DNA from: Candidatus Methanophagaceae archaeon GoMg2
GTDB taxonomy: Archaea; Halobacteriota; Syntropharchaeia; Alkanophagales; Methanospirareceae
NCBI GenBank assembly: GCA_013180585.1
Contig: QBUM01000249.1
Location: 1-44,365, forward strand
Direction of reading: 5' to 3'
Length of the DNA: 44,365 bases
This document shows positions 3,009-43,657 of this stretch, in pieces. Under the pieces are notes generated by a model that was given only the letters and a program-made list of their open reading frames with translations, searched no databases and had not been told where the DNA came from. The position numbers were made by a program, and so were the translations under genes. How positions within the stretch are numbered: position 1 is the stretch's first letter; each line of letters starts with the position of its first letter.

Positions 3009-4499
3009 TTAATCGTTACCCCTTTCAGTGCTAATCTCGCCGTAAACATCATAAATCACAATCACACTCACGAAAAGATACAATACGTTTACGTTACCCA
3101 ACGTGCCGAACATATTTGCAACTACAAGCAAAGCACCCAGAATGCCACAACCCAATATTGATATCTTCGGTGTGCTCCGATCCACCGCCCGCTTTATCGC
3201 TTTTAAACCACTGCGATGTCCGTAAATCGGAAGCCCTGAATCACGCACCATTGCGTTTATATCCCTCGTTTCCAGACCCGGCGTTAGTTTTAACCATATT
3301 AGCGCGATTAGCATTGCTCCCGCAGCCATTATTGAAGCGGTTACTGCTACTCTCACTGCAATTTGCCAGACCGCAATATCTGGATAAATACTATGCACAA
3401 GCGTAGGCACCCAGTCATTGGGACTGTAAACGGGATTGAGATAATATGCCAAACAACCTGTTATTGGATTGCCATATGCATCGTACGTCCCGAATGTGGT
3501 AATTCCTTTGGTCAAAAGCAACCTTCCAAAACCCTGTATGCTTGCTAATATAGCCCAACCCCCGGGGAAAAACACCAGCGGAGCAACAATAGCATACGAA
3601 AAGTGCATAAGCTTGATCGGAAATCTGACTAGGCCTCGGCTACTTCGCCGTTTCAAATAGCCCGGTATCTTTATCTCTATACGAGTACATGTCAGATAAA
3701 TAACGAGTAAAAAAAGAGCGACAGTCGTGATAAGCGCGATTACGTAATTTTGGAATAGAAAAACCAATCCGCCTTCTGATATTTTATATGGCTCTACTTG
3801 CTGCGCTATTTCTATCCATCTTGGTATTACACCGACCGCTAAGCCACTCGAATCAGGCATCCAATTAATAAACCCGGTAAATAACTGCTGCGTAACACCA
3901 GCCATGATAAAAATACCTATTCCCGAACCTACACCCCATTTCGTGACTACACCTTCCATATAATATATCAATATCCCGCCGAAGAATACCTGCAAAAAGA
4001 TTAAGAAAGAAATGAACTGCAGAGACACACCAAGCTGGTATGCTATTTCCAGATCGGGCATATAAAAGCCAACGGCATAGGAAATGCTGTTAAGAAACAC
4101 GAAACAAAGAACGATCATTTTATGCAAGTTCAGATAAAATGCCTGGTCCCTTGGGTTGCTCAAGTCGAGCTTCATTAACTTTGGGCCCGCTAAAATCTGT
4201 AAAATAAGCGAAGCACTTATGATTGGCATGATACCAACACCACTAAGCGAGAATCTTTCGCCTGCGAATAGTGCACGCCACTGACCGAAAAGGACCATTG
4301 ATTCGGGAGAAAGACCGAAGAGCGGGATATTGCCCATAGCAAAATAAAGTATAAGTATAGCGGCAGTAAACAGTAGCTTTGCCTTTAGTGGTACATACCG
4401 CCTGGGACGTTCTACCATCGGGATTTTTGTTAAAACGAACGTTAACGCATCCCTTACGCTTAGCCCGTTCAAACCCATCACAGTTTCGTTATCAATCAC
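3009..4499 (-). CDS. SecY-like preprotein translocase subunit, second paralog
   Basis: Multi-TM; aligns by eye over its length with the adjacent SecY (LFGLSPESMxLFGQWRAxFAGERFSL, KWGxGSGI, GHRxG); plug-proximal segment and C-terminus diverged. Confidence 0.85.
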   Translation of the reverse strand: MIDNETVMGLNGLSVRDALTFVLTKIPMVERPRRYVPLKAKLLFTAAILILYFAMGNIPLFGLSPESMVLFGQWRALFAGERFSLSGVGIMPIISASLILQILAGPKLMKLDLSNPRDQAFYLNLHKMIVLCFVFLNSISYAVGFYMPDLEIAYQLGVSLQFISFLIFLQVFFGGILIYYMEGVVTKWGVGSGIGIFIMAGVTQQLFTGFINWMPDSSGLAVGVIPRWIEIAQQVEPYKISEGGLVFLFQNYVIALITTVALFLLVIYLTCTRIEIKIPGYLKRRSSRGLVRFPIKLMHFSYAIVAPLVFFPGGWAILASIQGFGRLLLTKGITTFGTYDAYGNPITGCLAYYLNPVYSPNDWVPTLVHSIYPDIAVWQIAVRVAVTASIMAAGAMLIALIWLKLTPGLETRDINAMVRDSGLPIYGHRSGLKAIKRAVDRSTPKISILGCGILGALLVVANMFGTLGNVNVLYLFVSVIVIYDVYGEISTERGND

Positions 4500-5970
4500 C
4501 GAAGAATCTACGCATTGCTGGATACATCTCCATCATCTGCTCAGATGCTACGTCCTCATATAGCCGGTATGCGATACTCACGGCCAGAAGCAAACCCGTT
4601 CCTGATGCTTGCCCCAATGTGCCGAACATATTTGAAAGCACGCATAGCACACCCAGGACAGCACCACCCATTAATGCTATTCGCGGAATGTAGCCCTCCA
4701 TCAGTCTCTCGATCGTTGCTTGTCCTCTCCGATGTCCCGGTATTTGCAGTCCTGAGTTATGTATCTGCGCTGCCACATCCTTGGGCCCCATACCAGTCGT
4801 ATTTATCCAGAATAGCGCGAATATCGCACCGCCTACGACCATAAAAATGAGATCAATACCGAGCCTCGTGGCAATTTGCCAGCCCGCAATGTTTGGATAA
4901 ACACTATGCACCATTGATGGGAACCAATCCCAGGGACCATAAATCGGGTCAAGATAATATACCAATCCTGATACTGCACTTCCATTTGCATCGTACGTCC
5001 CGAATATGGTAATTCCTTTGTTCCAAAGCAACCTTCCAAAACCCTGTATGCTCGCCTGTAATGCACGTACAAGAATCATTGGAAGTACACTTGCGTATAA
5101 CAACTTAATTGGAAACCTGCCACGAGCGCCTCGCGCCATCGAATGTGCTAAAGGTATCTCTAAACGAGTACTCTCAAGGTACACAACAACGAAAAATACC
5201 ACAATGGTTGAGATAAGTGCTATTAGATGATGCTGGAAAAGAAAAGTCATTCCTCCTTCTAATATCTCATACGCTTCTACGTGCAATGCCGAGCCAGGCC
5301 ATAGCAACTCTATCCATCTTGGAATCACACCTACCGCCAATCCGCTCTGATCTGGCAGCCAGTTAATGAGTCCGATAATTATTTGTTGCGAGACACCTGC
5401 GAGGATGAACAACGAAATACCTGATCCTATACCCCATTTCGAGACCACTTCGTCCATGAAGTATATAAGCAATCCGCCAGCGAATACCTGTAAGAAAAGC
5501 ATGAGCGAGATGGCCTTCAGAGATACACCGAGCAGAGATGCTATTGCCGGATCCGGCTTATAAAAGCCTATGACATAAGTCAGGCTAATAAAAGCAGAGA
5601 AGACGATAACGAGTAACTTCTGCAAGCTCTGATAAAACGCCTGGTCTTTTGGATCGCTCAGGTTAAGTTGTATTATCCCCGCACCGACCAGAAGCTGTAA
5701 AACAATAGAAGCATCAACGATTGGCATAATACCGAGCGCAGTAAGCGAGAACCGCTCCCCTGCAAAGATGGCACGCCACTGACCGAAGAGGTCCATTGAT
5801 TCTGGCGATAGTCCGAAGAGAGGAACGTTTCCCAATGCAAAGAAGAGAACGAGTATGCCAACCGTCCATGCCAGCTTCGACTTGAAGTGGACGTGCCAGC
5901 CCGGCCGCTCCACCATAGGGAACTTACTTAAAACCTGTGTTAAAACCTCTCTCGAATTTATCGCTTCCAT
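4492..5970 (-). CDS. secY: preprotein translocase subunit SecY
   Basis: LLVGAGIIQLNLSDPKDQAFYQSLQK, VSKWGIGSGISLFILAGVSQQI, C-tail EMYPAMRRFFGD; next to uL15. Confidence 0.93.
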   Translation of the reverse strand: MEAINSREVLTQVLSKFPMVERPGWHVHFKSKLAWTVGILVLFFALGNVPLFGLSPESMDLFGQWRAIFAGERFSLTALGIMPIVDASIVLQLLVGAGIIQLNLSDPKDQAFYQSLQKLLVIVFSAFISLTYVIGFYKPDPAIASLLGVSLKAISLMLFLQVFAGGLLIYFMDEVVSKWGIGSGISLFILAGVSQQIIIGLINWLPDQSGLAVGVIPRWIELLWPGSALHVEAYEILEGGMTFLFQHHLIALISTIVVFFVVVYLESTRLEIPLAHSMARGARGRFPIKLLYASVLPMILVRALQASIQGFGRLLWNKGITIFGTYDANGSAVSGLVYYLDPIYGPWDWFPSMVHSVYPNIAGWQIATRLGIDLIFMVVGGAIFALFWINTTGMGPKDVAAQIHNSGLQIPGHRRGQATIERLMEGYIPRIALMGGAVLGVLCVLSNMFGTLGQASGTGLLLAVSIAYRLYEDVASEQMMEMYPAMRRFFGD

Positions 5971-12469: not shown

Positions 12470-13483
12470 TTGGCATTGTCTTGTTTTTTACTGCTTCTGT
12501 TAGCGCTCAGGTTAGTTGAATGGACTCATTTAGTTGATATTCAGGGGATGCCTACTGGCGCGGCGGCGCTTGGCGGATACCTTGTCGCGCTTTATAATTT
12601 TCTTTTAGGCGCCGTAGGGATTATCGCGCTAATGATGCTTGTCTATGGCGGGTTCCGCTATATGACTTCTGCTGAAAATCCCGCGGCTATGGGAGACGCA
12701 AAAGATATTGTTTATTCCGCTGTCATAGGCCTTGCGCTGGCGCTTCTTTCCTGGTTGATTATCAGCACAATAAACCCCGAGCTTCTTTTCACCGCAGAGC
12801 CGACGCTTTCTCCTGTCGGAAGCGGCGGCGGATTCAGCGCAAATCTCCCGCCTGCGTCCTGCGCGGATAAAAGCCATGGCGGATATGAAAATCCTGATGA
12901 ATGCCGTTGTCTTGGATATACGGAATTATTCCCTGCTCGCAGAGAATGCACAGATGTTAAGTCGCTTTATGGTTGGGGCGGCACTTGCGATGAACTATGC
13001 GAACGTTTTGTCTGTCCTATGTATCCATACTGTTGCGTAAAGGCGGAATTAATAGCAGGGACCAATACAGAGGAAGTAAGTTATAGCGGAGAGCTTCCTC
13101 CTGTAAAAAAAGGCAGTCCAGTATTTTTTGATGCTATGAATAATTCTTTTACTTGTATACCGGGAGATAAAATAGTGAGAGTAGGAGTACAAATAAATCG
13201 TCCTTGGATTGATTTTGGTAGTTTCCAATCAGAATGGAGTGAAGAAACTGAAGAAAGTTCTTCGTGTAACTGGACTGATTGTGACATAGCTCCTCCTGGT
13301 CTTCTTGGTTTTGAATGCGATTCAAATGATCCATGGTGTAATAGCGGAACTGGAAGATTTACAGCGGACACTGATCGTATTTCAGCAGGAACTCATAATC
13401 CTTGGCTAAGAATATGCGTAGAACAGATTGACGGAACTTGCGTTATAGTTGATGATAAATCCATGACACTTATTATAGAATAA
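12470..13483 (+). CDS. VirB2/TrbC-like pilin-type membrane module fused to Cys-rich ectodomain
   Basis: TTG start; NFLLGAVGIIALMMLVYGGFRYMTSAENPAAMGDAKDIVYSAVIGLALALLSWLIISTINPELL resembles T4SS pilin-like proteins; then ~230 aa with many Cys. Confidence 0.65.
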   Translation: MALSCFLLLLLALRLVEWTHLVDIQGMPTGAAALGGYLVALYNFLLGAVGIIALMMLVYGGFRYMTSAENPAAMGDAKDIVYSAVIGLALALLSWLIISTINPELLFTAEPTLSPVGSGGGFSANLPPASCADKSHGGYENPDECRCLGYTELFPARRECTDVKSLYGWGGTCDELCERFVCPMYPYCCVKAELIAGTNTEEVSYSGELPPVKKGSPVFFDAMNNSFTCIPGDKIVRVGVQINRPWIDFGSFQSEWSEETEESSSCNWTDCDIAPPGLLGFECDSNDPWCNSGTGRFTADTDRISAGTHNPWLRICVEQIDGTCVIVDDKSMTLIIE

Positions 13484-33198: not shown

Positions 33199-34647
33199 TC
33201 ATGCTAATCTTTCATTAATGATTTTAAATAATCTCTCAAAATTTTCTGTTGTTAGTGTTCCTAACTTATCATCTTTAAAAGAAGAATCTAATGTCATCTT
33301 GTTGATCTGGCGCGCCACCAAAACTTTATCAAATTTTCCAAACCCCTTATTTTTGAGGAATTCTGCATACTTTTTTGTGTGTTTGGTTATAGCAGTATCC
33401 AATTCATATAGAGTTATGTCTTTCCTTATTATTTTACTGTATGCTTCATTTACTGCCCTATTATAAAACTTCTCATCAATCAAATCTTCAATTTCAATAT
33501 CTCTTCCACGACCTCCCCTTTTCATTTTGTCCGATACACATTCATTTAACATGATTACTATGTCTTCTTTGATGTTATACCTCTCTTCTAATTCTTTTTT
33601 CACACGGATTCCTTGGGTGTCGTAATCAAGAACTGTGATAAAACTAAAATTTTCTTTTTCCAATAAAAGTGCAAAGTATGGAAACTTATCGGCACCACCG
33701 ACGGGAATGATTGCGGTTTTAGAAAAATCTAAACATTCTTTTTTGTTTCTCTCGAAATAATTTGATACTGCCTCTATTATCAGATAATCTGAAAACCCCT
33801 CTACAATCATATTTTTCTTATTTGTAAAAAGAGAATCCCCAATTGTTGCTCCAATGGCTGCTCTTATTGGTGCAAGTGCATCAAGCTCTGAATCATGAAA
33901 CTTTTCTTTGACAACAGTACCTTTATTTTTTTCTTTTTCAAGTATTTTAATTCTATCAAGGTTGTTTTTATCAATTAAAAATGGAGAATGTGTAGCATAT
34001 ATTATTTGATTATTTTCTTTAAGTTTTTCTAATGTACTCAATAGGTTTTTCTGCCCTTCTGCGTGTAAGTGAACTCCAGGATCATCTAACAATAAAACGG
34101 TATTTCTAAGCACACCTTTTGATCCCTGCATAAAGTTTATGTAGAAGGATAAGAACCATTGAAAGCCTTTACTTCTCTTACTTGGAGGTGTTGGTTCTGC
34201 ACTTGTTTCATCTTCTATCATAATAACAAAATCAGGCGTATTATATGTTATTTCGACTTCATATTCACCTTGTTTCCAAAACTCATTTATCTCACCAGTT
34301 ATCTTCTTTGATGCTTTTTTCGTATAGATGCGTTGCTGAGACGGTGGTTTTTTCTTTAATTCCTCTGCATTTAATCTCACCAACTTCAATAGGTTATCAA
34401 AAGTTTTATATTTTGATTTATTCTTCAAAAAGTCATTTATGTTAACGGTGTCCTCCTTTAAGATGTTTATATCATCAAAATAAATGAAACTTGGCATTAG
34501 TTTTAGTATCTTATGCACATTATCCCTCGGCATTTCTATTAATTCACCCTTAATCTCTTCAATGCGTTTTATAGTATTCTCAATATCATTCACAATTGGT
34601 TGATCCGTATCTGGCAACGCTTTTAGATTATCATAAAAAGTATTCAT
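33199..34647 (-). pseudogene. C-terminal part of OLD-family ATPase/TOPRIM endonuclease
   Basis: VLLLDDPGVHLHAEGQKNLLSTLEKLKENNQIIYATHSPFLI (ABC ATPase) and TOPRIM NMIVEGFSDYLIIEA...TVLDYDTQG; split from its N-terminus by the element at 34645-35069. Confidence 0.85.
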
Positions 34648-37224: not shown

Positions 37225-37325
37225 AACTTTTACTACGGGATTTTGGCCAAAGGCGTGTGTATGTTTCTAAATCCAAAGAACAGGATAAGGTGCTTGAGAT
37301 TTGTAAATCCATGTTATCGCCACAA

Positions 37326-37505
37326 CCTAAAAGCAGGGATCCAATCGTAGTACCGTTCGCCATTTACGTCTATGAATTCTGTACAGGTTATTCCACCACC
37401 GGTTGCATTAAACTCATGCTCATGGATAATTTGAGGATACGAGCCCGTTTTTAGCGTGTAGTTGTATGTTTCGTTTGCTACAAGTCTGAATGATTGGTTA
37501 AAAGT
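37326..37505 (-). pseudogene. fragment of a secreted/surface protein gene
   Basis: Minus frame SFRLVANETYNYTLKTGSYPQIIHEHEFNATGGGITCTEFIDVNGERYYDWIPAFRLW; protein-like and has N-glycosylation sequons, not transposase. Confidence 0.4.
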
Positions 37506-38032
37506 GACGTTTGTAGAGGATAAATCCACAATAGAGAAGGAAACGCTGAGAAAGGGTAAATTCATCGTGGCTACAAACCTATTGGACCGCGAGAATCTGA
37601 GTGACGAAGAAGTGCTTACGGCTTACAAGGAGCAGCAATATGCGGAAAGAGGGTTCAGATTCCTCAAAGACCCGCTATTCTTCGCCCACAGCTTGTTTCT
37701 GGAGCAGGAAAGTCGAATTGTCGCGATGGTGATGATTATGGGGCTTCTGCGAAGTATTTTGATCAAACTTTCTTAAAGTTTGACTCATGGTTTACGCGAT
37801 TGCTGAGAATAAGTTGCGAGAAGCGCGGGATAAGGAAGACGAGACTGTCCCTGATCAGAAGAACCACCCTACGAAGAAACCGACAATCAGACGTGTCTTC
37901 TGGGTGTTTGAGGGTATTACAGTACTTTACAGAGGTTCCGAGATGGTGAATGTCATGAACTTGCGACCGATTCATCAAAAAGTCCTTTCATTGCTTGGTC
38001 GTGAGTATGCGAGGATGTATTGCACCGGTTAG
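37490..38032 (+). pseudogene. IS1634-like transposase remnant (C-terminal part, interrupted)
   Basis: KGKFIVATNLLDRENLSDEEVLTAYKEQQYAERGFRFLKDPLFFAHSLFLEQESRIVAMVMIMGL ... VYAIAENKLREARDKEDETVPDQKNHPTKKPTIRRVFWVFEGI. Confidence 0.8.
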
Positions 38033-38274
38033 GGCTGTGGTTGTTATTGAGGTACGCGGCAATGCAACGCAGTGGAGAAAGGGGCCGTTAGATTATCGCA
38101 TTTCATGCGAAAACGATAGAAACGGAGGTATAAAAGGTGTGGCGAGAGATGTGATGCGTGCAGGGGCATCCGCATAAAACGTACACTGTTTAGCAGGTTC
38201 GTTGTTGTGCGCAATTCTGAAAGTGCCCTATTTTATTGTGGTAAAGTGCGGAATGTGGGAGAGAAAATAGAAAT

Positions 38275-38668
38275 GGACTATATTATCTTGCTTGTGGAAG
38301 ATGAAGAACAGATTCACACACTACTGCCAGTTTATCTGGCGAGGAACAAGCAGCATACGTTCACCGTGCATTCTGCCAGGCATGGCAAGGCGGGAGTTGA
38401 GCAGTACAGCAAGTTGGCAAACGGAGGTAAGAAGCCGGACCTCGTGTTGATGGACATCAAGATGCCGGTGATGAACGGCATGGAAGCAACCAGAATGATA
38501 ATGGATAACGACCCGGCAGCAAACATTTACCTGTTCACCGCCTATGCGGGAACCGAGGTAGAGAGAAACGCACTCGATGCGGGTGCAAAAGGTACTAAGC
38601 AAGGACGCAGACTGGACCAAGATAGCAGAAGAGATAGTGAATATTCTAAAATCCGCTTGACAAGGTAG
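38275..38668 (+). pseudogene. receiver-domain (CheY-like) protein, copy 1, C-terminus frameshifted
   Basis: LLVEDEEQIHTLLPVYLARNKQHTF...DLVLMDIKMPVMNGMEATRMI; 2-nt loss relative to copy 2 (GGTACTAAG vs GGTACACTAAG). Confidence 0.8.
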
Positions 38669-38814: not shown

Positions 38815-39204
38815 ATGGAATATAATATCTTGCTTGTGGAGGATGAAGAAGAGTTTCACAATTTACTGCCACTTTATCTGGCGAGGAACAAGAAGCATAC
38901 GTTCACCGTGCATTCTGCTCGGTCTGGCGAGGCGGGAGTTGAGCTGTACAGTAAACTGACAAACGGAGGTAAGAAGCCGGACCTCGTGCTTATGGACATC
39001 AAGATGTCGGTGATGAACGGTATGGAAGCAACCAAAAGAATAATGGCTAACGACCCGGCTGCAAACATTTACCTGTTCACCGCCTACGCCAAAACAGGAG
39101 TAGAACGAAATGCGCTCAACACGGGTGCAAAAGGTACACTAAGCAAGGACGCAGACTGGACCAAGATAGTAGAAGAGATAGTGAATATTCTGGAATCCGC
39201 TTGA
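38815..39204 (+). CDS. receiver-domain (CheY-like) protein, copy 2
   Basis: LLVEDEEEFHNLLPLYLARNKKHTF...DLVLMDIKMSVMNGMEATKRI...LSKDADWTKIVEEIVNILESA. Confidence 0.85.
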   Translation: MEYNILLVEDEEEFHNLLPLYLARNKKHTFTVHSARSGEAGVELYSKLTNGGKKPDLVLMDIKMSVMNGMEATKRIMANDPAANIYLFTAYAKTGVERNALNTGAKGTLSKDADWTKIVEEIVNILESA

Positions 39205-39922: not shown

Positions 39923-40288
39923 TCAGTGCAGTGCCTTTTCAATTCCAGCAAACAAAACATCCATGGGTGCAGGTTTTTGTAAGAAGCCAACGGCGCCTAT
40001 TTCCAGTGCTTTCTCCTTTACAGAAACATCAGCGCTGGCAAACAATATTCTCGCATTTTCATCCAATTCGAGTATTTCCATGGTTGCTTCTATTCCGTTC
40101 TTGAGTGGCATTCTATGGTCCATGATGACTAAATCCGGCTTTTTGGTGAATTTTTTGTATTTCTCTATTGCATTCTGTCCATCTGTTGCAGTATCTAAAA
40201 TGCGGTAGCCATTATTACGTTCTATCATCATCCTGAATAGTACCAGTATATTTGGGTCATCCTCAACAAGAAATATTGTATCTGTCAT
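39923..40288 (-). CDS. response regulator receiver protein
   Basis: DTIFLVEDDPNILVLFRMMI...KPDLVIMDHRMPLKNGIEA...FLQKPAPMDVL. Confidence 0.88.
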   Translation of the reverse strand: MTDTIFLVEDDPNILVLFRMMIERNNGYRILDTATDGQNAIEKYKKFTKKPDLVIMDHRMPLKNGIEATMEILELDENARILFASADVSVKEKALEIGAVGFLQKPAPMDVLFAGIEKALH

Positions 40289-41394
40289 CGGATTTCCGCC
40301 CTCCCTTTAGGAACAATCACATTAAAGACACTTCCCTGCGTATAGTCTCCCTTTATCAGGTCTTCCACCCAAACTTCCCCACCACATCGGTTTATAAGCG
40401 TTTTCACCAAATACAAACCGATCCCGCTTCCTTTTATAGATTGCTGCCCTCTAATGAAACGTCCGAAGATTGCTTCTTTCACTTCGTCTGGGACTCCTCT
40501 CCCTCTGTCTCCGACACTTATCCTATAAAATTCTTTACCATTTCTTGAATAATCATCAACACCGATGTCAATCGCGACTTTTTTAGATGGCGTAAATTTT
40601 ATCGCATTATCCAGAATATTGCTGAATATGTTGCTTGCTAAGGAATTAGCAAGGATGTATTGGCTTTCTGCAGAAGGATTATAGATTATAGTGACTTCTT
40701 TATCTTTATGGCTTGCTTTGGCTGAGTCAATGCACTCCGTTAGTATCGCCGTTAAATCCATGACTTTTAGTTCAGGTTCAGTTTCCTGAACCTGTTTCAG
40801 TTTTCTCACGTCCTCAATTAGTTTTGCACTTCTTTTAACCGCAGATAACGCTTTTTCTATGTACTCTTTTTGTTCGTCGCTACGACTCGATTCCAATAGT
40901 AGATTAAGATAGCCCATTGTTGTTTGATTTATATTATTTATGTCGTGTGCCATCAGGTCGTTATAAAATTCCGCTATCTGTTTCAACAAGAATACTTCTT
41001 GCTCTAACCTGTTCTTCTCAAGCCCTCTCTCAATGATTCTTTTCAGGTCTTCCACCTGGTACGGTTTTGGCATATAATCGTAGCAACCTTTCCCTATCGC
41101 CTCTATTGCCGTATCTAAAGAGGGATAGCCTGTGATGACTATTCCAATCGTGTATGGATCGACTTTTTTTGCTTCCTCTATTACCTCTATACCATCTTTC
41201 CCTGGCATCTTCAGATCTGCTAATATCACGTCAAAAATCTGCTTCTTCAATATATCCAGTGCAGCCAATCCATCTTCCGCTGTCGTCACCTTGTACCCTT
41301 CTTCTTCCAGTATCGCTTTGGTGGTGACCCGAAAAGAATGTTCATCATCCACTATGAGTATCTTTTCTCTCATTTTCTTCTCCATTTTTTTCAA
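40285..41394 (-). CDS. hybrid receiver-histidine kinase
   Basis: REC (ILIVDDEHSFRV...VILADLKMPGKDGIEV) + H-box MAHDINNINQ + HATPase N, G1, G2 boxes. Confidence 0.9.
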   Translation of the reverse strand: MKKMEKKMREKILIVDDEHSFRVTTKAILEEEGYKVTTAEDGLAALDILKKQIFDVILADLKMPGKDGIEVIEEAKKVDPYTIGIVITGYPSLDTAIEAIGKGCYDYMPKPYQVEDLKRIIERGLEKNRLEQEVFLLKQIAEFYNDLMAHDINNINQTTMGYLNLLLESSRSDEQKEYIEKALSAVKRSAKLIEDVRKLKQVQETEPELKVMDLTAILTECIDSAKASHKDKEVTIIYNPSAESQYILANSLASNIFSNILDNAIKFTPSKKVAIDIGVDDYSRNGKEFYRISVGDRGRGVPDEVKEAIFGRFIRGQQSIKGSGIGLYLVKTLINRCGGEVWVEDLIKGDYTQGSVFNVIVPKGRAEIR

Positions 41395-42694
41395 CTATAG
41401 GTAGTATTATATTAAATGTTGTGCCTCTTCCCACTTTGCTTCTTACTTCTATTATACCCTTATATCTCTTTATTATTCCATAAGATACGGACAAACCCAG
41501 TCCAGTACCCTTACCACCTTTCTTTGTGGTGAAAAAAGGGTCAAATATCTTATCTATCTCTTCCTCAGGTATCCCACGACCAGTATCGGTAAATTCTATT
41601 ATAACTTCTGGCGATCCTGCAGGGTGAGAATAAGTTTTTATTGTTAATTCTCCACCTTCGGGCATTGCCTCCACTGCATTCAGTATTAGATTCAGGAACA
41701 CCTGCTTGAGATGTTCTGAAGAAGCCATAACCGCTGGCAGTTTCGGATTAAAATCTTTAATTACTCGCACGCTCCGATTGGCGAATTGCTTTTTCACGAT
41801 TTCCAATATGTCATCAAGCGGAAAATTTACGTTTGTCGGTGCTAGTATCTCTTTTTGGGGACGATATAAATCCAAGAGCCTCCGGACAATCCCGGAAATA
41901 CGATCTACTTCTTGCTCTGCAATCTCTAAATATTCTTTTTTATTCTCGGATACCGAATCAGACAACAAATATAGACTGTTTTTTATGCCACCCAAGGGAT
42001 TGTTTATTTCATGTGCAATATCAGCAGATAATCTACCAAGAGCCGCGAGTTTCTCTGAGTGAATTAACTGTTTCTGGGTATCTCTTAATTCTTTATTAGC
42101 CCTTGATACTTCTTTGTTAAAGGATATCAAACCATAAAAGACCAGGATAGCTATGCTTATGACGCTTATTCCAATCACCAGGCTTCCCCATATCATACTC
42201 CATACCTCAGCATAAACTTTTTCAAGAGAGAAGCCCAACCAAACCGTATGACCTCGATAGCTGGGTGTCACGACTACTTTTATTTCCTCTACGCCATATA
42301 TGTCAGTTTTTATCACTGTTTTATCTGTTTTAATAGCTCTGTCCCTGATAAGCACCCCCCGCTCTTCCACTATATTGGATAAATAAATTTCTCCAGTGGG
42401 CTTTACTATTCTGCAATATACGATATCATCGGGTTCTGCTAATTTCCTCACTATTTCCCTCTTATGCGCGGGAACGGCGTGTACTTCGGCAGACCCGATG
42501 CTCATGGCGGCTGTCTCTGCCAACATTACTTTCTCGTCAATCGCGGATTCAATCATGTACTCCCGCTCGTTAACGATTGTCAGATACGTTTGCAGACAGA
42601 TAATGAAAATCAAAAAAAAGAAAAAGACGAAAGAGAGCTTTATACGCGCTCTTCTACTTTTGCCCTTCAACATATTACTGATTTTTTCCTTCAT
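41345..42694 (-). CDS. membrane sensor histidine kinase
   Basis: Two TM segments around an extracytoplasmic sensor, H-box DIAHEINNPLGGIKN, HATPase NLILNAVEAMPEGG, TDTGRGIPEEE, GTGLGLSV. Confidence 0.92.
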   Translation of the reverse strand: MKEKISNMLKGKSRRARIKLSFVFFFFLIFIICLQTYLTIVNEREYMIESAIDEKVMLAETAAMSIGSAEVHAVPAHKREIVRKLAEPDDIVYCRIVKPTGEIYLSNIVEERGVLIRDRAIKTDKTVIKTDIYGVEEIKVVVTPSYRGHTVWLGFSLEKVYAEVWSMIWGSLVIGISVISIAILVFYGLISFNKEVSRANKELRDTQKQLIHSEKLAALGRLSADIAHEINNPLGGIKNSLYLLSDSVSENKKEYLEIAEQEVDRISGIVRRLLDLYRPQKEILAPTNVNFPLDDILEIVKKQFANRSVRVIKDFNPKLPAVMASSEHLKQVFLNLILNAVEAMPEGGELTIKTYSHPAGSPEVIIEFTDTGRGIPEEEIDKIFDPFFTTKKGGKGTGLGLSVSYGIIKRYKGIIEVRSKVGRGTTFNIILPIVEKNGEENERKDTHSG

Positions 42695-42700
42695 CTTAGC

Positions 42701-43657
42701 TCAATATCCGAATGCAGGAGACGAGCTGTGGTCTGCGTGCACGAGTGTTATTTTTATGTTCGCGTCCATTCCTTCTATCTTCTTTATAAACTCTTCATCC
42801 CCATAACTCCAGCGTATAAGGTTTTCTTTCGTAACCCTCCCTCCTTTATTAAACGGCACGATGGTGACAGGGGCGGTTATCCTGTCATCTAAATATTCGG
42901 CTAATTCCCACTGCGCAAGTACCACAGGGTCGTATAAATTTACTACCTTCTCTAATTCATCCACCGTGACGTGGTCCACGTGCCCATGCGTCACTAATAT
43001 CAGGTCAATATCATCGAAAGCCGTATAGTCCTTGTATTCCGCCGGGCAGTCGGGATTTGCTTCCAGCCAGGGGTCTATCAATATTCGCGTTCCGTTCACC
43101 GACTCGATGAGAAAGGATGCGTGCCCCAGCCAGAGGAATTTTATGCCCATCAATTCACGCCAGACGCCGTATTCCAGGACGACAGGCTCTGCTCTTGTTT
43201 CTCCCCTATCTCTGAATTCATTTACTCCTGCTACGAACTCGGATGCGTTTTGTGTCATCTCAGCAAAAGAATGGTAGTGATAGGGAACTACGAACTTCGG
43301 ATTTATCAGTGTCGTGGCGTATGCGGCATCTTTTGAATCCATTGTGTAAAAGTCACCAATGGGTAAAAAAGCAATGTCGGGCTTGTAGTAGTCGCCTATG
43401 ATGAATTTCATACCCGCAAAAAGACAGGTATCACCCGCAAGATAGTACGTAACCCCGTTCTCGAATACAATTATATACCCATTAGAAGTCCCGGTGTAAA
43501 TCGGTCCTTCAAATCCTACACTTTCCATTGGAACCTTAGGCTCAACTATCTCTATTTTCTCTGTAGTCGCTTGCAGAAATCCGGCAATGGAAATACCAAG
43601 CGAAACTACCGAAATCACTATAATTAATCCTATTGCTATCCATATTTTTTTATCCAT
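42701..43657 (-). CDS. membrane-anchored, circularly permuted UlaG/UPF0173-like metallo-beta-lactamase-fold hydrolase
   Basis: N-terminal TM; residues ~46-169 = C-terminal MBL half (YYLAGDTCLF, PYHYHSF); residues 170-318 = N-terminal MBL half (MGIKFLWLGHASFLIES, LILVTHGHVDHV, HADHSSSPAFGY). Confidence 0.85.
   Translation of the reverse strand: MDKKIWIAIGLIIVISVVSLGISIAGFLQATTEKIEIVEPKVPMESVGFEGPIYTGTSNGYIIVFENGVTYYLAGDTCLFAGMKFIIGDYYKPDIAFLPIGDFYTMDSKDAAYATTLINPKFVVPYHYHSFAEMTQNASEFVAGVNEFRDRGETRAEPVVLEYGVWRELMGIKFLWLGHASFLIESVNGTRILIDPWLEANPDCPAEYKDYTAFDDIDLILVTHGHVDHVTVDELEKVVNLYDPVVLAQWELAEYLDDRITAPVTIVPFNKGGRVTKENLIRWSYGDEEFIKKIEGMDANIKITLVHADHSSSPAFGY

Follow-up and report, generated by a model that had tools for sequence, protein, structure and literature searches.

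A conserved, circularly permuted metallo-beta-lactamase-fold protein in ANME-1 archaea, and its possible role as an auxiliary sensor for a neighbouring histidine kinase

Toward the end of the window (the whole 44,365-nt stretch of DNA that was analysed) lies a gene, here called cpMBL, whose product carries the motifs of a metallo-beta-lactamase (MBL) fold in swapped order, next to a gene for a sensor histidine kinase. The locus raises two questions: whether the protein is a genuine circular permutant, and what such a protein might do beside a kinase. The open reading frame starts with ATG and, as an earlier note on this DNA had claimed, runs for 318 codons with no internal stop. Its features are as follows.

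42701-43657, minus strand: gene for cpMBL, a UPF0173-type MBL-fold protein of 318 aa, circularly permuted and with a membrane anchor at its N-terminus
43583-43639, minus strand: predicted transmembrane (TM) helix, residues 7-25 (hydropathy 2.74 and charge balance; helix 3-32 in the predicted model)
43151-43507, minus strand: residues 51-169, the half of the MBL fold that is normally C-terminal, holding AGDT (D76) and PYHY (H127)
43130-43162, minus strand: residues 166-176, the new linker where the old C-terminus meets the old N-terminus, a tight beta-hairpin in the AF2 model
42704-43150, minus strand: residues 170-318, the half of the MBL fold that is normally N-terminal, holding GH179, THGHVDH (H224, H226, D228, H229) and HSSS (H310)

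The UPF0173 family (PRK00685; Igni18/Igni_1254, 6hrg; TM1162, 3x2x) shares with cpMBL both half-sequences, all metal-ligand motifs, and NKGG/NIGG, GDT and PMHY/PYHY. The UPF0173 motif order of GHxxFLI, HxHxDH, HSS, GDT and PxHY was absent from cpMBL and its four homologues described below, the order being swapped in 5/5 proteins. The NCBIfam profile PRK00685 scored cpMBL at 171 bits (cut-off 144), and the match consisted of two stretches in swapped order, with residues 52-149 aligned to profile positions 120-214 and the remainder to the front of the profile. Three of the other permuted proteins scored above the same cut-off (L023, 178 bits; L024, 162; L025, 167), and L026 fell just under it, at 141.9 bits. 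Sequence matches to the PDB told the same story: cpMBL residues 172-234 aligned with residues 4-63 of Igni18 and residues 56-145 with residues 124-212, and the match to TM1162 showed the same swap.

Re-joining the halves in the normal order, as the earlier note had proposed, raised the PRK00685 score only from 171 to 179 bits. Local scores are summed over separate stretches, which kept the gain to 8 bits, and the order of profile matches and a rotation scan are therefore stronger tests. In the scan, every rotation of the catalytic region was scored against an HMM built from 14 normal-order relatives. In each of the five proteins, the optimum was a re-opening at residue 170-172 (GIKFLWLGH) or at the equivalent position; in the window protein and L023, it was tied with starts within an insertion. 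Rotation increased the single-domain score from 98 to 152 bits for L024, from 98 to 159 for L025 and from 85 to 131 for L026. The gain was small for L023 and likewise for the window protein (101 to 107 bits), both of which are split by the insertion; in the window protein, it measures ~20 aa (~residues 272-298) and lies ahead of the HSS motif.

The re-joined alignment extended across the old junction (HSSSPAFGY / VGFEGPIYTGT). In normal proteins, this point falls within the variable loop that separates the HSS motif from G-x-P-x-G. At the new junction, the old last strand (VVLEYGVWREL) leads into the old first strand (GIKFLWLGH) with nearly no linker added, and AF2 strands 166-169 and 172-176 form a hairpin there with pLDDT ~90. 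Profile order, PDB matches, the rotation scan and the re-joined alignment uphold the clean circular permutation proposed earlier. We read cpMBL as a true circular permutant of a UPF0173-type MBL domain, passed on by inheritance. The internal Met170 is poor evidence for a relict start codon because it is not conserved, relatives having Glu or Asp at that place. As to the origin suggested in the earlier note, a tandem duplication with loss of the outer halves, the searched genomes yielded no intermediate in duplicated form.

A search of related genomes, also suggested in the earlier note, recovered the same permuted order in a total of five genomes from two phyla. Besides the window's own genome, three MAGs of Methanophagales held full-length permuted homologues (identities to cpMBL of 81, 66 and 67%), as did one of Aenigmatarchaeota (44% identity over the alignment). 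In a tree with 14 normal-order archaeal relatives, the five proteins formed one clade with support of 100/100. Ratios of dN/dS between the Methanophagales copies were ~0.17-0.31; cpMBL is under purifying selection. Its distribution is patchy: 4/58 genomes of the window's class, the same four among 397 genomes in a sample of the window's phylum, and 1/160 Aenigmatarchaeota genomes. These counts are a lower bound, the scan across GTDB species having used a single query sequence that finds close relatives only and the profile search having covered archaeal genomes. No permuted relatives were found in plasmids or in viral contigs. We rejected the possibility that the Aenigmatarchaeota copy comes from a contaminating contig. 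A transglutaminase-like gene flanking it has relatives in 59/160 genomes of that phylum, whereas 159 genomes from the phylum of the window gave just two matches, both partial and weak; this indicates that the contig is correctly placed and that the module crossed phyla.

Seven ligands, H224, H226, D228, H229, H310, D76 and H127, were invariant in all five permuted proteins. The earlier statement that all metal-ligand motifs are kept holds for these seven but not for H307, which is Tyr in L023, or H129, which is Gly in L026. An AlphaFold-type model, which the earlier note had called for, was coherent (pTM 0.72, from an alignment of only five sequences), but the C-terminal ligand loop 308-318 was poorly modelled (pLDDT <50), so that the model does not show a complete metal site in three dimensions. 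When the structure was compared with the PDB using Foldseek, the closest UPF0173 structures aligned over only about half of it (~100-112 columns, with rmsd values mostly of 2.0-2.8 A), and alignments to other MBLs were longer but had an rmsd of ~6 A or more. Foldseek aligns sequentially, in an order-dependent way; its half-only matches to UPF0173 structures are consistent with a permutation but are no test of a complete site. UlaG lactonase belongs to the same MBL superfamily and resembles cpMBL distantly; we rejected an assignment of cpMBL to UlaG, the permuted proteins scoring 18-25 bits against a cut-off of 306. None of the open-access papers searched described a natural circularly permuted MBL. 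We conclude that cpMBL is a real, conserved and new variant of a known fold.

By contrast with UPF0173 proteins, cpMBL has swapped halves, the ~20-aa insertion before HSS, an N-terminal anchor and a kinase partner. The normal-order relatives that we examined have no membrane anchor, begin at the first strand and have no conserved kinase neighbour. Hydropathy placed a TM segment at ~residues 5-25 in 5/5 permuted proteins and, together with charge balance, bore out the N-terminal anchor described in the earlier note. The N-terminus of cpMBL is predicted to lie inside and the remainder outside, judging from hydropathy and a weak charge bias, and the stretch between the TM helix and ~residue 57 was poorly ordered in the predicted model.

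The genes downstream of cpMBL encode signalling proteins, a context that the earlier note had missed.

41345-42694, minus strand: 449-aa sensor histidine kinase, whose gene follows cpMBL after a gap of 6 bases; TM1 at ~23-41, external sensor domain, TM2 at ~172-190, HisKA, HATPase
40285-41394, minus strand: receiver plus HisKA/HATPase hybrid protein, the next gene in 4/4 Methanophagales loci
39923-40288, minus strand: response regulator made up of a single receiver domain, last in the cluster, with homologues that likewise follow the hybrid gene in L024 and L025

Conserved adjacency to a histidine kinase, a mark of auxiliary sensors, was found in 5/5 genomes, the kinase gene lying directly downstream of cpMBL on the same strand with gaps of 6, 11, 14, 14 and 36 bases (by listed starts). 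At the Aenigmatarchaeote locus, a receiver protein is encoded convergently to the pair. The neighbours of cpMBL were the kinase and receivers, with no conserved metabolic gene in the loci seen. The two partners have diverged in parallel, with identities of 81/66/67/44% for cpMBL and 78/66/67/32% for the kinase. The external domain of the partner kinases spans ~130 aa between two TM helices. We searched 51 genomes of the family with a profile of this domain, defining the close sensor type by a score of >240 bits. The close type occurred in exactly the four cpMBL genomes and in 0/47 others; diverged relatives (55-68 bits) occurred in seven other family genomes. The sensor domain matched no Pfam family above cut-off, its profile gave no meaningful match in the PDB, and its AF2 model had a pLDDT of 48.

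Elsewhere in the window, single receiver genes are duplicated at 38207-38668 and 38815-39204 (plus strand; 88% DNA identity over 390 bases), the first copy appearing frameshifted close to its end. Two SecY-like translocon genes stand in tandem at 3009-4499 and 4492-5970 (minus strand, 8-base overlap), with a cut-off of 300 bits; one product, at 303 bits, is a normal archaeal SecY, and the other, at 184 bits, is a paralogue that has diverged. A 337-aa protein encoded at 12470-13483 (plus strand) combines a type IV secretion system pilin-like domain (PF18895) with a long Cys-rich C-terminal extension, unusual in an archaeon, and the gene at 33199-34647 (minus strand) encodes an AAA_21 ATPase and OLD-like TOPRIM protein resembling OLD-family nucleases. 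Apparent degraded transposase fragments, judged by eye, lie at 37257-37776 (~37.3-37.8 kb), and a transposase-like HTH gene begins at the contig edge (44104-44364, plus strand).

The genomes with diverged sensor relatives offered a comparison. In 4/7 of them (L039, L040, L041 and L043), the gene directly upstream of the kinase encodes a FIST_N/FIST_C protein; in another of the seven, it encodes a CARDB/DUF3344 surface-type protein. The three FIST genes seen whole all encode an N-terminal hydrophobic anchor, accompanied in two by a lipobox-like Cys. They end 9-34 bases before the kinase gene. The FIST genes of these four genomes directly precede those of HAMP/PAS sensor proteins, some of which have a kinase domain. 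The cpMBL gene occupies the same position as the FIST gene in the related loci, and no FIST domain was detected in cpMBL itself, which matched only MBL families. NosP-type FIST proteins are auxiliary sensors that bind an adjacently encoded kinase and control its autophosphorylation (PMC12570481). The likeness to cpMBL lies in a separate sensor gene beside its kinase, and the difference in the MBL fold of cpMBL, with no evidence of haem. The anchored FIST proteins of ANME-1 are possibly an extracytoplasmic counterpart of NosP.

We propose that cpMBL is a membrane-tethered, extracytoplasmic, circularly permuted MBL that serves as an auxiliary sensor of its kinase, a reading that we hold to be about 60% probable. 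It is supported by the conservation of the permutation, the adjacency to a kinase in 5/5 genomes, the exclusive co-occurrence with one sensor type, the parallel divergence, the FIST analogy and purifying selection; the partnership with the kinase, the sensing and the direction of signalling are our interpretation of these patterns. According to this model, cpMBL would sit on the outside of the cytoplasmic membrane, tethered by the TM helix at its N-terminus, and would form a two-gene signalling module with the downstream histidine kinase. The conserved metal site would bind a metal or small-molecule ligand, or turn over a substrate, and this event would alter the contact between cpMBL and the external sensor domain of the kinase. 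The altered contact would in turn set kinase autophosphorylation and phosphotransfer to the nearby receiver proteins. The permutation would move the tether from the old N-terminus to the loop after the HSS metal-ligand motif, where, we conjecture, it could couple the metal site mechanically to the membrane.

The intact metal-ligand set suits an active enzyme and a sensor equally well. cpMBL might instead be an exported metallo-hydrolase with a mainly catalytic role, acting for example on a lactone, a phosphodiester or an envelope component, with the kinase sensing its substrate or product or regulating its expression. The invariance of the seven ligands fits such a role, as does the behaviour of Igni18, the closest characterised relative, which is a promiscuous hydrolase with lactonase, phosphodiesterase, beta-lactamase and other activities (PMC7846560). 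We nevertheless regard a mainly catalytic role as rather unlikely, since cpMBL lies beside a kinase and receivers at each locus seen, with no conserved metabolic gene, and since related kinases have a FIST protein in the same position, which argues for cpMBL as a sensing partner. Still less credible is that cpMBL and the kinase lack any functional link and are chance neighbours or transcriptional passengers: the known loci number only five, and a single family supplies four of these, but the pair has been kept in two phyla at 32-44% protein identity with a spacing of 6-36 bases, and both the parallel divergence and the exclusive co-occurrence speak against coincidence. Finally, although the window comes from a fragmented MAG of 251 contigs, a misassembly at 42701-43657, a pseudogene or a chance rearrangement in one MAG can be dismissed, because five independent assemblies share the permuted ORF and its dN/dS is well below 1.

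The auxiliary-sensor reading has a possible parallel in the oxygen-binding protein ODP of Treponema denticola, which has an MBL fold and is a soluble protein of another MBL family with the normal order. ODP is a diiron protein and an oxygen sensor genetically coupled to chemotaxis signalling (PMC7666581), and we liken it to cpMBL as a metalloprotein tied to signalling. The cpMBL-kinase pair is probably a new kind of two-component input. We give even odds to a broader proposal, in which a permuted, tethered MBL senses for its kinase as a previously undescribed input, the module is swapped horizontally between ANME-1 and DPANN (Aenigmatarchaeota), and the permutation positions the metal site for signalling.

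Few enzyme folds are as widespread as the MBL fold, and a conserved permutant is a test of how much re-threading the alpha-beta/beta-alpha fold tolerates while its metal site stays whole. The pairing of cpMBL with a kinase whose sisters work with FIST proteins suggests that the outer sensor proteins of archaeal kinases are swapped, and this provides a way to approach what the uncultured ANME-1 archaea, which oxidise methane, are sensing.
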